Assembly (NCBI RefSeq): GCF_002915175.1
Contig: NZ_NXEJ01000006.1
Span: 318,626 to 382,625, forward strand
DNA from: Agrobacterium rosae
GTDB lineage: Bacteria > Pseudomonadota > Alphaproteobacteria > Rhizobiales > Rhizobiaceae
Reading direction: 5' to 3'
Length of the DNA: 64,000 nt
In this document: one piece after another, positions 9,426-43,924 of the stretch
How the letters are laid out: the number at the start of each line of letters is the position of its first letter
Position numbering within the stretch: the stretch's first letter is position 1
The notes under the pieces: model-generated
What the model was told of the DNA's origin: nothing
Databases searched by the model: none
Seen by the model: only the letters and a program-made list of their open reading frames with translations
Position numbers and translations under genes: made by a program

Positions 9426-9461
9426 TCAGCCATTGACTCGGATGCGCTTCCGCCGGATAAC

Positions 9462-9665
9462 GGTTGTGTGATGGTCTTTCCGGGTTTGCCCGGAAAGTGA
9501 AAAGGGAACACGATAGAAGCTGACGCTTCAATTCGTGGCTGCCCCCGCAACTGTGAGCGGATAGCCTGAAAACGAAAAGCCACTGACTGCAAAGTTCGGG
9601 AAGGTGTTTTCAAGGTTACGACCCGCGAGCCAGGAGACCTGCCATCACATGAGTGTCGTCAATAC
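9462..9665 (+). promoter_or_regulatory. Cobalamin (AdoCbl) riboswitch
   Basis: Conserved B12-aptamer landmarks appear in order. A stem TTTCCGGG/CCCGGAAA is followed by AAAAGGGAACACG, then GCTGCCCCCGCAACTGTGAG with CGGATAG, then GCCACTG near 9580, GGGAAGGTG near 9598, and CCCGCGAGCCAGGAGACCTGCC near 9625-9646. It precedes cbtBA, so excess cobalamin is expected to switch these cobalt-uptake genes off. Boundaries are approximate. Confidence 0.95.
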
Positions 9666-12537: not shown

Positions 12538-13104
12538 TCACCGATGTTCCGCCGAAAACACTGCAATCTCGGCTTCCGCTTCCGGCCCCCAGAGGTCGAG
12601 CGCTTTCAGCACTTCGGCGGCGAATGTTACCGGTGCGCTGCCGGGGGCGGTGACGATGCCTTCGTGGCTCACCGCCTGTGGCTGGTCGCGGTAGTGTTCC
12701 GCGCCTTGATAGCTCTCATATCTGCTATGTGAATCCACAGAATTGCCGGTATGGGCCACATGGTTCAGCACGCCGGTTCCCGCCAGCGCGCTTGCCGCCG
12801 CACAAATGCCGCCGACCACGCGGTGCTGGGTGCGAAAGCGGTGCACCAGATCGGTAAAATCCGGTGCCGCACCCTTTTCCCAGATCAGTCCGCCGGGAAT
12901 GACCAGCGCATGAATCGTCTCCGGGTCCAGTTCGTCATAGGCCATATCAGGCGTGACATTGAGGCCACCCATCGACGTAACCGGTGCGCCGTCGGGTGAG
13001 GCCGTTACGATATCGACGCCCAGATATCCACGTGCCGCCGCAATCAACAATGCGGGTTCCCAATCGGCAAAATCCTCGGTCAGGGCCAGCGCAATACGAG
13101 GCAT
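12538..13104 (-). CDS. DJ-1/PfpI family protein
   Basis: A 188-residue class I glutamine amidotransferase-like protein of the DJ-1/PfpI superfamily. The nucleophile elbow Cys is in VVGGICAAASALAGTGVL (near residue 100), preceded by HALVIPGG with its conserved glycine pair; an acidic Glu-Asp region lies in the N-terminal ALTEDFADWE. Related proteins are glyoxalases, chaperones or peptidases; the function here is open. The ATG at 13104 has AGGAGA 6 nt upstream, so an upstream in-frame extension is not needed. Confidence 0.82.
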   Translation of the reverse strand: MPRIALALTEDFADWEPALLIAAARGYLGVDIVTASPDGAPVTSMGGLNVTPDMAYDELDPETIHALVIPGGLIWEKGAAPDFTDLVHRFRTQHRVVGGICAAASALAGTGVLNHVAHTGNSVDSHSRYESYQGAEHYRDQPQAVSHEGIVTAPGSAPVTFAAEVLKALDLWGPEAEAEIAVFSAEHR

Positions 13105-13201: not shown

Positions 13202-13690
13202 TTAAGCTAACGCCTGCATGAAGCGCATGCCGGTAACGGGGCGTGGTATGAAATCCATGTTTTCGTAGAACTTGTGCGCGGCGAAGTTGCCGGTGGCTGC
13301 ACCCACGGAAAGGAAATCACAGCCACAACGCTTGGCAACGTCCCGCGCGCGGCCCACAAGGTGCTGGCCGGTGCCATGGCCACGGTGACCATCACGTACG
13401 AACAAATGGTGCAGTTCCATGCCGCGACGGCCTTCCTGCGCACGGTAGAGCGGCACGAGAATGGCGTAACCGATCAACTCGCCATCGGCCTCGGCCACCA
13501 GCGCCGTAATCCACGGCACCTGGCCGAACAGATCGCGCTCCAGCTTCTCAGCCGTAATCGCCGCCGCATCGCCATGGTGGGCGGCCAGCAGCATAATCAT
13601 CTCGTTAAGCTCAGGCAGATCGGCCTTGCGTGCACCACGAATGGTCACGACGGGCGGTCTCGGCAGGGTCAGAAGGCTGTCTTCGGTCAT
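13202..13690 (-). CDS. GNAT N-acetyltransferase behind an attenuator
   Basis: A 162-residue GNAT protein. It has the N-terminal IRGARKADLPELNEMIMLLAAHHGD segment, the acetyl-CoA binding motif LFVRDGHRGHGTGQHLVGRA (near residues 96-115), and AATGNFAAHKFYENMDFIPR as motif B. The substrate is unknown; diamine or amino-acid acetylation are family possibilities. GAAGGA lies 9 nt upstream of the ATG. Between its promoter and start lie a leaderless 17-codon peptide and competing hairpins (13742-13879), implying translation-dependent control of transcription into this gene. Confidence 0.88.
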   Translation of the reverse strand: MTEDSLLTLPRPPVVTIRGARKADLPELNEMIMLLAAHHGDAAAITAEKLERDLFGQVPWITALVAEADGELIGYAILVPLYRAQEGRRGMELHHLFVRDGHRGHGTGQHLVGRARDVAKRCGCDFLSVGAATGNFAAHKFYENMDFIPRPVTGMRFMQALA

Positions 13691-13741
13691 TATTTCGTCC
13701 TTCGGGTTCTGGTTTAGCCGTCAGGACGTTTGAAAACAACA

Positions 13742-13788
13742 AAGCCGCCTGACGGCGGCTTGTCGACAAAATGATCTGTCGAGCCGCC
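13742..13788 (-). terminator. Attenuator: antiterminator and intrinsic terminator of the GNAT leader
   Basis: On the minus strand, GGCGGCT (13788-13782) and the adjoining CGACA can pair with TGTCG and AGCCGCC (ending 13754) to form an antiterminator. The same AAGCCGCC strand (13761-13754) instead pairs with GGCGGCTT (13749-13742), loop GTCA, followed by TGTTGTTTT: an intrinsic terminator. The two folds are mutually exclusive, and the first starts immediately after the leader-peptide stop. Confidence 0.75.
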
Positions 13789-13789
13789 C

Positions 13790-13843
13790 TTAAAGGAAGG
13801 CCCAAAAATACGTGCAGGAAATGGGTGCGCGTGCGTTGATCAT
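13790..13843 (-). CDS. Putative leader peptide MINARAPISCTYFWAFL
   Basis: A 17-codon reading frame, ATG at 13843-13841 and TAA at 13792-13790. There is no Shine-Dalgarno: the bases just before ATG are CTCTCCC. The A of the ATG lies 8 nt downstream of the -10 element, so the transcript would begin at or next to the start codon, as described for the leaderless trpL of Sinorhizobium. The run Cys-Thr-Tyr-Phe-Trp followed by Phe near the end would place a stalled ribosome just ahead of the antiterminator arm. It most probably works in cis on the GNAT gene. Which amino acid or inhibitor is sensed is not clear, since no single residue is repeated more than twice in the run. Confidence 0.65.
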   Translation of the reverse strand: MINARAPISCTYFWAFL

Positions 13844-13850
13844 GGGAGAG

Positions 13851-13879
13851 TAGATGCGCTGGAATTGGGATTGTGTCAA
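13851..13879 (-). promoter_or_regulatory. Promoter of the leader peptide/GNAT transcript
   Basis: A consensus TTGACA (13879-13874) lies 17 nt upstream of CATCTA (13856-13851). The predicted +1 falls at about the A of the leader-peptide ATG at 13843. Confidence 0.7.
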
Positions 13880-13958: not shown

Positions 13959-14157
13959 CTGGCGCTGGTGGGTGCGGCTTACCCCCCTCTGTCCTGCCGG
14001 ACATCTCCCCCTCAGGTGGGGAGATCGAATCGTGGCGACCTCTCGCACATCTTGAAGGCTGCGGAGAGCGTGGGGAGCAGGCGTCTAGCCAATCTCCCTC
14101 CTTGAGGGGGAGATGTCCGGCAGGACAGAGGGGGTAAGCCGCCCCCACCAGCGCCAG
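13959..14157. repeat. Long palindromic element, family B copy 1
   Basis: About 199 bp with arms of roughly 60 bp. The left arm begins ctggcgctggtgggtgcggc and continues through ctgtcctgccggacatctcc; the right arm is its near-complement ending in cccaccagcgccag. The central part differs between copies. Other copies lie at 18691-18862 and 43739-43924. It lies between the leader promoter of the GNAT gene and the 3' end of the MerR gene, and together with the leader fills the 496-bp gap between these genes. Confidence 0.9.
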
Positions 14158-15015: not shown

Positions 15016-16029
15016 ATGACAGCGACGACAGAGCATAACCACGCCCACGGCACCCACAGCCACGTTTTTCTGGGGCAGGATCATGAGCGCAATGAACGCC
15101 GTGTCTGGACGGTGATTGCGCTGACGGCGGCGATGATGGTGGCGGAAATTGCAGCCGGAAGCTGGTTTGGCTCCATGGCACTGACAGCCGATGGCTGGCA
15201 TATGGCTACCCATGCCGGTGCGATGCTGATTTCGGCGCTGGCCTATCTCTACGCCCGCAAACAGGCCAAGAACGCGCGCTTTACCTTCGGCACTGGAAAA
15301 TTTGGTGATCTGGCCGGTTTTGCCAGTGCTGTCGTGCTGGGTGTGGCGGCCATCATGATTGCCTGGGAAAGCACGTTGCGCTTCTTTTCTCCGGTGCAGA
15401 TCGATTTCAATCAGGCTATTGCGGTGGCGATGATCGGCCTGGTCGTCAACATAATCAGCGCTTGGTTGTTGAAAGACGACCACCACCACGGACATGACCA
15501 CGGGCACTCCCATGGCAGCCACGCCCACCACGGCGACCACGCGCACTCTGGTGAGCACGCGCACCATGGTGAGCACGCCCATCATGGAAGCCATGGCGGC
15601 AAGGACAACAATCTGCGCTCTGCCTATCTGCACGTCGTGGCCGATGCGCTGACATCCGTTCTCGCCATCGTCGCTCTGCTGTTGGGGAAATGGAACGGCT
15701 GGACGTTCCTCGATCCGGCCATGGGCATCGTCGGCGGCATCGTCATTGCGCGCTGGTCTTGGGGTCTGCTGCGCTCTACCGGTGCCGTGCTTGTTGATGC
15801 TGTTCCGCAGGGTGATGTTCTGTCTGGCAAGATCCGCCGTGCAGTCGAGACGGAAGAGGAATGGATCACTGATCTTCACGTCTGGCAGGTAGGGCCGGGG
15901 CATCACGCTGCGATTGTCGCGATACAGTCTCCGTCACCGCAGGCTCCGGCCTTTTATCGGCGCAAGCTGGCTGCAATCCATGAGCTTTCACACATCACGG
16001 TCGAAATCGACGCCGCGAACCCAGCTTGA
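15016..16029 (+). CDS. dmeF: DmeF, cation diffusion facilitator (Co/Ni efflux)
   Basis: A 337-residue inner-membrane CDF transporter exporting divalent metal, most likely Co(II)/Ni(II), against the proton gradient. Six hydrophobic segments are visible, with the transport site ligands in TADGWHMATHAG (TM2) and HVVADALTSV (TM5). A very His-rich cytoplasmic loop (about residues 156-195, repeated HH-G-H and HAHHGEH units) lies between TM4 and TM5, with a second His-rich stretch at the N-terminus. The HxxxD/DxxxD arrangement fits the DmeF group. It forms an operon with dmeR and ends in a terminator at 16065. Confidence 0.92.
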   Translation: MTATTEHNHAHGTHSHVFLGQDHERNERRVWTVIALTAAMMVAEIAAGSWFGSMALTADGWHMATHAGAMLISALAYLYARKQAKNARFTFGTGKFGDLAGFASAVVLGVAAIMIAWESTLRFFSPVQIDFNQAIAVAMIGLVVNIISAWLLKDDHHHGHDHGHSHGSHAHHGDHAHSGEHAHHGEHAHHGSHGGKDNNLRSAYLHVVADALTSVLAIVALLLGKWNGWTFLDPAMGIVGGIVIARWSWGLLRSTGAVLVDAVPQGDVLSGKIRRAVETEEEWITDLHVWQVGPGHHAAIVAIQSPSPQAPAFYRRKLAAIHELSHITVEIDAANPA

Positions 16030-18690: not shown

Positions 18691-18862
18691 GTGGCTCACC
18701 CCCCCCCTCTGTCCTGCCGGACATCTCCCCCACAAGGAGGGAGATCGGCTGGGCGCACAAACCCCGCTTCACTCTCAACATTAGAGATGGCCGAGAGCTA
18801 ACCACGAGTCGATCTCCCCACCTGTGGGGGAGATGCCCGGCAGGGCAGAGGGGGGTAAGCCA
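18691..18862. repeat. Long palindromic element, family B copy 2, inside the proXWV operon
   Basis: About 172 bp with arms gtggctcaccccccccctct... and its complement ending ...ggggggtaagccaca. It has the same core (ctgtcctgccggacatctcc and its partner) as copies 1 and 3. It occupies most of the 259-bp gap between proX and proW, genes that would otherwise be one transcript. Confidence 0.9.
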
Positions 18863-43738: not shown

Positions 43739-43924
43739 GGTGGGTGCGGCCTCACCCCCCTCTGTCCTGCCGGACATCTCCCCCTCAAGGGGGGAGATCG
43801 ACCAGTTGCTCGCTATCGCCCTTCTTGAACGTTGCGAGTGAAGCGTCAGTGGGCCGTCTTGCCGATCTCCCCCCTTGAGGGGGAGATGCCCGGCAGGGCA
43901 GAGGGGGGTGAAGCCACACCCACC
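43739..43924. repeat. Long palindromic element, family B copy 3
   Basis: About 186 bp with arms ggtgggtgcggcctcacccc... and its complement ending ...ggtgaagccacacccacc. The core is ctgtcctgccggacatctcc/ggagatgcccggcagggcag as in copies at 13959 and 18691. It is located between the convergent DUF1491 and cheW genes. Confidence 0.9.

Follow-up and report, generated by a model that had tools for sequence, protein, structure and literature searches.

What does an attenuator of the trp type read, and control, when the gene behind it encodes an acetyltransferase? The question is raised by the minus strand of a 64,000-nt stretch of Agrobacterium rosae DNA (GCF_002915175.1, NZ_NXEJ01000006.1, forward-strand positions 318,626-382,625), referred to here as the window. 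Our analysis leads to the conclusion that the element is very probably a leaderless ribosome-mediated attenuator that senses the charging of tRNA-Tyr, together with tRNA-Phe and tRNA-Trp, and controls a GNAT gene at two levels. Its support comes from anatomy, conservation, covariation and the match between leader codons and downstream gene. The parts of the locus are as follows.

13851..13879, minus strand: promoter TTGACA-N17-CATCTA, read from the sequence; TTGAC stands 34-37 nt 5' of the ATG at 175/175 loci
13790..13843, minus strand: predicted leaderless 17-codon leader ORF MINARAPISCTYFWAFL, present at 175/175 loci; stop codon TAA at 13792-13790
13838..13843, minus strand: 5' arm AUGAUC of the start-codon helix
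13794..13803, minus strand: segment 0, the tail of the leader ORF, predicted by folding to pair with segment 1 (protector hairpin)
13777..13789, minus strand: segment 1, 5' arm of the antiterminator, GGGCGGCTCGACA, covarying with segment 2
13771..13776, minus strand: anti-start arm GAUCAU, pairing with the leader 5' end
13754..13768, minus strand: segment 2, TGTCG-ACA-AGCCGCC, pairing with segment 1 (antiterminator) or segment 3 (terminator)
13742..13749, minus strand: segment 3, 3' arm of the terminator, GGCGGCTT, from the terminator scan and the partner-swap test
13733..13743, minus strand: U-tract TTTGTTGTTTT, from the sequence
13748..13756, minus strand: 5' arm of helix 3:4, GCCGTCAGG, whose pairing excludes the terminator
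13717..13725, minus strand: segment 4, CCTGACGGC, pairing with 13748-13756
13723..13728, minus strand: anti-Shine-Dalgarno arm CGTCCT
13696..13702, minus strand: GNAT Shine-Dalgarno region AAGGACG, from the sequence, covarying with the segment-4 region
13202..13690, minus strand: GNAT acetyltransferase gene, 162 aa, ATG at 13690 (Pfam PF00583, E 3.5e-16), the predicted controlled gene
12538..13104, minus strand: DJ-1/PfpI-family gene (Pfam PF01965), probably co-transcribed with the GNAT gene

By direct reading, TTGACA occupies 13879-13874 and CATCTA 13856-13851, and the leader ATG follows 7 nt further on at 13843, with no Shine-Dalgarno sequence before it in the window. The promoter, the 17-codon frame and the missing ribosome site are thus as an earlier, preliminary description of this DNA had stated. 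From the promoter spacing, +1 would lie at or beside the A of the leader ATG, which is the basis on which that description's leaderless start can be upheld. A consensus promoter scan of the window did not report the leader promoter, because CATCTA is a poor hexamer that fails the scan's -10 rule. The DNA 5' of TTGAC varies among lineages and the upstream genes differ, and this divergence supports a promoter and leaderless start at that point. Segment 1 reads GGGCGGCT-CGACA at 13789-13777, directly after the leader stop; a terminator scan calls the hairpin at 13761-13742, and GGCGGCTT plus TGTTGTTTT finishes at 13733.

A palindromic repeat of some 146 bp is present three times in the window (13986-14131, 18706-18851 and 43759-43904, judged from paired end motifs), its first copy lying just 5' of the leader promoter. 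The window also holds an 18-bp tandem repeat of 3.8 copies (15519-15587) within an ORF of 337 aa (15016-16029) that encodes a His-rich protein.

The leader accompanies the GNAT gene wherever we looked for it. Within the genus, the GNAT gene was found at at least 80% identity in 37/37 genomes searched, the window genome included, and the leader at 30/30 of the loci first fetched, a count that leaves out five GNAT orthologs of the 37 genomes. Across the family, 68 of 297 genomes (23 of 109 genera) carry the gene at E<=1e-25, and all 68 have a leader, 16-17 codons long and preceded by TTGAC at 34-37 nt. The leader is also present at 80 named loci, the best 80 of 402 relatives, which include Agrobacterium, Rhizobium, Neorhizobium, Ciceribacter and Pseudorhizobium (the leader of L158 was recognised on a second look). 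Joining the family and named sets, between which species overlap, and leaving out L031 (a duplicate) and L097 (another family), the leader ORF, TTGAC 34-37 nt 5' of it and competing hairpins occur at 175/175 ortholog loci, with 143 distinct elements and 84 distinct peptides. The first leader finder favoured aromatic clusters; once this bias was switched off, all 175 loci gave exactly one ORF of 12-20 codons having TTGAC at 33-40 nt. On the opposite strand none of these stretches held such an ORF, and shuffled sequences gave one in 5/875 cases, none with three aromatics in five residues. The conservation of the leader far beyond chance is therefore confirmed, and the rhizobial conservation of peptide, spacing and hairpins for which the preliminary description had proposed a search was found at every ortholog locus, and the stems show compensatory changes. 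The U-tract has at least 6 T in 11 positions at 171/175 loci. In the other family, the GNAT of L097 is 40% identical and its locus is arranged similarly, the peptide MNLVQNHLNSYHRRLN carrying His in place of the Phe after Tyr(-6).

To examine the RNA structure, we hybridised each arm with its own and with other sequences' partners in 47 family sequences at most 90% identical (L072, L084 and L086 left out). In this partner-swap test, as in that of the start-codon helix below, the permutations take no account of relatedness among sequences. The terminator 2:3 gave -15.1 kcal/mol with own against -14.4 with swapped partners (0/10000 permutations). The antiterminator 1:2 gave 11/10000 permutations and, by column count, 0/500 shuffles on four of five measures and 40/500 on the fifth. 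The competition between antiterminator and terminator that had been proposed thus holds up, with segment 2 shared between two helices that both covary. Helix 3:4 was stronger with own partners (-16.9 vs -14.0 kcal/mol, 0/10000), as was the pairing of segment 4 with the Shine-Dalgarno region (-13.7 vs -10.2 kcal/mol, 0/10000), where the values of L033, L123, L135 and L138 are weakened because the GNAT start was called too early. The protector hairpin 0:1 gave -14.4 with own against -12.0 with swapped partners (0/10000); a fixed-column pair count showed no covariation for the OFF structure as aligned and gave this hairpin no support.

An additional helix, 5' AUGAUC with GAUCAU, was first indicated by RNA-model building. 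It covaries in 50 family sequences (own -6.9 vs swapped -6.1, 0/10000), with compensatory examples in L085 (ATGACAG with TTGTCAT) and L087 (TGATGACG with CGTCATCA). In 18 related elements outside the GNAT ortholog set the covariation was stronger, -11.1 vs -6.8 (0/20000), the own partner ranking first in 7 rows and seventh or worse in 3 (L189, L219, L224); this test leaves out L193, L195 and six DAHP synthase elements with longer leaders. The earlier anatomy was therefore right in its competing hairpins and incomplete in missing the protector hairpin, helix 3:4, the Shine-Dalgarno helix and the start-codon helix. The RNA of the window element also folds better than shuffles (z -3.1 and -4.2).

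The four loci with fewer than 6 T in the U-tract positions all belong to one genus (L051, L053, L061, L069). They keep the alternative hairpins, and their segment 4:Shine-Dalgarno pairing is -15.0 to -16.6 kcal/mol. The lost U-tract together with this strong pairing suggests that the genus carries a translational version of the switch, and so how transcriptional may turn into translational control.

Constrained folding of 46 sequences (L047, L072, L084 and L086 left out), with a ribosome footprint that we set to reach 15 nt to either side of the first P-site base, indicates where a stalled ribosome would favour the antiterminator. Before segment 3 is made, the probability of pairing 1:2 is 0.86-0.92 with the A site at -7 to -3 from the stop, peaking at 0.92 at -6, and falls to 0.51 at -2, 0.01 at -1 and 0 at the stop; with no ribosome it is 0.56. 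The Tyr-Phe-Trp codons lie within this permissive stretch, and the geometry does not single out Tyr. Once segment 3 is present, the terminator is favoured at equilibrium in every state, with the probability of 1:2 at most 0.16 (at -6). The attenuator model thus needs kinetic folding, in which the order of events is decisive.

From this anatomy we infer where transcription would start, where the ribosome would stall, where termination would occur and what the start-codon helix would do. With charged tRNA in ample supply, the ribosome would reach the stop codon and cover segment 1, leaving segment 2 to pair with segment 3, and transcription would halt at the U-tract. In this OFF state, a free segment 4 would additionally mask the GNAT Shine-Dalgarno sequence in any read-through RNA. 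A ribosome short of a charged aromatic tRNA would stall at the Tyr-Phe-Trp codons and open the protector hairpin 0:1, and the freed segment 1 would capture segment 2. Segment 3 would then be free for segment 4, so that termination would be avoided and the Shine-Dalgarno sequence released. The AUG:GAUCAU helix probably blocks reloading of ribosomes on an idle or finished leader RNA.

Which amino acids the leader would sense can be read from its conserved codons. In the window, Tyr12, Phe13 and Trp14 occupy positions -6, -5 and -4 from the stop. Position -6 is Tyr at 175/175 loci (149 TAT, 26 TAC), position -5 is Phe in 174/175, and Trp stands at -4 in 163 leaders, at -7 in 10 others and at -8 in a single one. 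All three aromatics are present in 174/175 leaders, Trp being missing only from L085, and their order differs by lineage (YFW, WYF, WFYY). Regulatory codons that keep a constant distance to the stop, combined with alternative hairpins, agree with the trp-type logic previously proposed. The residues 5' of the aromatic core are variable: Cys is missing from 50/175 leaders (36/84 distinct peptides), and the residue before Tyr is Thr in 29/84. Five different residues in a row, to which attention had been drawn, are therefore a local feature, and sensing of cysteine or of all five residues was rejected on the missing Cys. As judged from the leaders, the conserved sensor is Tyr-Phe plus Trp and not five residues.

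Elements of the same kind precede other genes. RNA model R1, built from GNAT leaders and searched against 297 genomes of the order, matched 21, comprising 5 GNAT genomes and 16 others, among them a GNAT-less member of the same family (G213). The 16 non-GNAT matches lie at tyrS (4), prephenate dehydrogenase (3) and DAHP synthase (6), with 3 non-leaders that are plain terminators; example leaders are MIKNAPIAANYYATLP at tyrS, MIATAHPIRTYYRPLT at prephenate dehydrogenase and MITVATSYFWYFSYDSS at DAHP synthase. A second model, R2, matched 48 of 385 genomes of the class. The 24 loci inspected (L242, L243, L245, L246 and matches without loci being left out) comprised 11 plain terminators and 13 leaders, at tyrS (1), trpS (3), prephenate dehydrogenase (2; the frame of L235 is longer and starts with GTG), other GNATs (5) and small S4-domain proteins (2). 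The trpS leaders contain FIWWRSF, RWWRS and RFYWPSP, and those of the other GNATs GWYFTSLP, AWYFTPLT, RWYFSATS and the like. Outside the window-type GNAT, the two models together give 26 elements: tyrS 5, prephenate dehydrogenase 5, DAHP synthase 6, trpS 3, other GNATs 5 and S4-domain proteins 2. Downstream genes were assigned by NCBIfam or Pfam for 19/26 and named by frame resemblance for the other 7; the prephenate dehydrogenase models at L189, L191 and L230 and the S4 assignment at L224 are below cut-off (curated cut-offs for the former). Two of the five other GNATs are 30% identical to the window GNAT over the aligned part.

The regulatory codons are cognate to the downstream gene at the tyrS, prephenate dehydrogenase, DAHP synthase and trpS elements. 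The pattern is YY or YF at tyrS, YY at prephenate dehydrogenase, WW or FYW at trpS and WYF at the other GNATs. Since the sensor codons follow gene function, tRNA charging is the signal to which they point. The preliminary description had left open general charging stress or ribosome inhibition; aromatic tRNA charging is favoured over both because the codons of related leaders match the gene behind them. Furthermore, GNAT leaders resemble DAHP synthase leaders, which likewise hold all three aromatics, more than they resemble most TyrRS leaders, and a general aromatic shortage is therefore the likelier signal. The exchange of sensor codons with gene function within one related set amounts to a natural recoding experiment.

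Some of these elements deserve separate mention. The attenuators of L225, L227 and L233, with WW or FYW before trpS, come from three families and have a similar start-codon helix. The two S4-domain proteins (L224:1160-1423 and L229:1180-1455, minus strand) are lone, small and like the TyrRS C-terminus, with Tyr-Phe leaders; from this resemblance each is possibly a regulator or a TyrRS-derived RNA-binding protein. A second element, with YY codons (MIKTALIAATYYATSP and similar), occurs in 4/68 GNAT-bearing family genomes (L281 in G212, L282 in G273, L284 in G313 and L283 in G130). Behind these tyrosine-only copies lies a full tyrS in two cases and a broken one in a third; the fourth has no tyrS frame after it. 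The products of the two full tyrS genes are 71-73% identical to the attenuated TyrRS of L187, from another family, and one of them, that of L282, shares 53% identity with a Rhizobiaceae TyrRS whose gene showed no leader. In the window genome and seven relatives, no Tyr leader was seen within 500 nt of the tyrS match. None was seen within 500 nt of the prephenate dehydrogenase match in the window genome and relatives, a look that is weak because the match begins inside the protein. No further convincing attenuator copy was found elsewhere in the window genome, which has four weak RNA-model matches without a cognate leader, and a DAHP synthase of the G213 type is absent from it at E 1e-30.

What the GNAT would do with such a signal is a matter for its sequence relatives. 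Solved structures closest to it in sequence include yncA, a probable N-acetyltransferase (2fe7), and thialysine and diamine acetyltransferases. The DJ-1/PfpI gene lies on the same strand and at most 400 nt 3' of the GNAT gene in 99/175 loci, and the two are likely a functional pair, as judged from this gene order. Some GNATs inactivate herbicides or amino-acid analogues, and in Streptomyces an auxiliary drug-resistant TrpRS is under attenuation control. Our guess is that the GNAT acetylates and detoxifies a toxic aromatic-amino-acid analogue, an antimetabolite or an inhibitor of an aminoacyl-tRNA synthetase. More broadly, and tentatively, Alphaproteobacteria may possess a family of leaderless aromatic-tRNA attenuators with a single-use lock, in which RNA further along the leader masks its start codon. 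Acetyltransferases in several lineages, and a TyrRS gene in some Rhizobiaceae, may have been recruited under this control as an inducible resistance regulon, in which the ribosome would detect blocked charging of aromatic tRNA by a natural synthetase inhibitor, a shikimate-pathway poison or an aromatic-amino-acid analogue of the rhizosphere and turn on the inactivating enzyme.

A rival explanation is that the nascent peptide, and not tRNA charging, is the sensor, with an antibiotic or other small molecule stalling the ribosome on the Tyr-Phe core. The NCBIfam matches of the GNAT, all below cut-off, include weak similarity to the drug-modifying AAC(3)-I, STAT and ArsN1, the Tyr-Phe pair is almost invariant, and excerpts of three papers describe attenuators of this sort in Gram-positive bacteria (PMC4335068, PMC4191407, PMC6851288). 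However, a peptide-specific stall fits poorly with a Trp that shifts from -4 to -7 or -8, with residues 5' of the core that vary, and with the replacement of Tyr-Phe by Tyr-Tyr at prephenate dehydrogenase and some tyrS genes and by Trp-Trp at two of three trpS genes. We consider this explanation unlikely.

Still less probable is a leader RNA or peptide that acts mainly in trans, like rnTrpL and peTrpL of Sinorhizobium, with control of the GNAT gene secondary. Products of trp attenuators of this kind are described as acting in trans in the portions seen of PMC7298713 and PMC7143759, and the same layout stands at trpE in the window genome. Yet the element tracks the GNAT gene: at E<=1e-4, R2 matched 70/297 family genomes, namely all 68 that carry the gene and two of the 229 that do not, both matches being plain terminators. 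The pairing with the Shine-Dalgarno sequence covaries with the GNAT start region, and the N-terminal half of the peptide varies. Weakest is a general sensor of charging or ribosome stress reading Cys-Thr-Tyr-Phe-Trp as five equivalent residues, which suits the Cys-(Thr or Ser)-Tyr-Phe-Trp of the window and all 30 same-genus loci first fetched and is very improbable given the absent Cys, the often replaced Thr and the gene-fitting aromatic codons of the tyrS, prephenate dehydrogenase and trpS leaders. Sensing of aromatic tRNA charging by the translating ribosome remains the reading that we prefer.

The element was also compared with known RNA families. At curated score, Rfam release 15 gave no match for the window element or 20 relatives; the best sub-threshold scores of the window element were 24.2 bits for RNAI and 18.4 bits for RcsR1. 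Identity with the sRNA RcsR1 (RF02552) was rejected, as the window element scores only below threshold and no gathering-level match appeared in the 20 relatives. According to the part seen of PMC7143759, RcsR1 and the trp attenuator RNA rnTrpL have one start position in common, and the weak score is therefore probably due to a shared layout. The sole gathering-level Rfam match in the window is a cobalamin riboswitch (9455-9660, plus strand).

In the open-licence papers searched, we found no description of a tyrosine element or of a GNAT gene under such an attenuator, in agreement with the earlier statement that no described system of this kind was known, nor any report of our tyrS, prephenate dehydrogenase or GNAT elements. 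The main texts searched on mapped 5' ends or sRNAs never use the word acetyltransferase. A 2010 comparative study reportedly treats attenuation at aminoacyl-tRNA genes. The element would thus provide a ribosome-read tyrosine/aromatic sensor where we found none described in those papers. It also links an orphan acetyltransferase lineage to aromatic-amino-acid stress, which narrows the search for its substrate. Its start-codon and Shine-Dalgarno helices would form a compact switch working at two levels, open to testing by simple reporters.

Attenuators of aminoacyl-tRNA synthetase genes are on record, in the sections seen of PMC1262725, for trpS and leuS in Streptomyces and pheST in gamma-proteobacteria; the same 2005 paper assigns T-boxes, not attenuators, to tyrosine. 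A leader CDS precedes the Caulobacter trpS, as an excerpt of PMC4117421 indicates. The trpS elements of our set (L225, L227, L233) are of this known kind, with leader codons cognate to the synthetase. Similarly, the resistance-gene attenuators bmrCD and mef/mel of Gram-positive bacteria, in the accounts excerpted here, resemble the GNAT element in having a leader peptide and transcription attenuator ahead of a gene with a possible role in detoxification; those systems respond to ribosome-binding drugs, whereas the codons of the GNAT element point to aromatic tRNA charging. The closest relative is the trp attenuator of Sinorhizobium meliloti (trpL/rnTrpL/peTrpL), whose leader ORF is leaderless according to the part seen of PMC7298713. 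The GNAT element shares with the rhizobial trp attenuator a leaderless ORF, aromatic sensor codons and the choice between terminator and antiterminator, and the trp leader of the window genome itself, MNTQSKNIAIWWWGSFTRP, follows the same GCGGCC / AAGCCGCC / GGCGGCTTTTTT layout. In contrast, the GNAT element would sense Tyr-Phe-Trp where the trp attenuator senses Trp-Trp-Trp, and its target is a GNAT and not a biosynthetic enzyme; covarying Shine-Dalgarno and start-codon helices are documented here for the GNAT element. Overall, the element would work like the trp attenuator, with a new pairing of sensor and target and with two additional locks.
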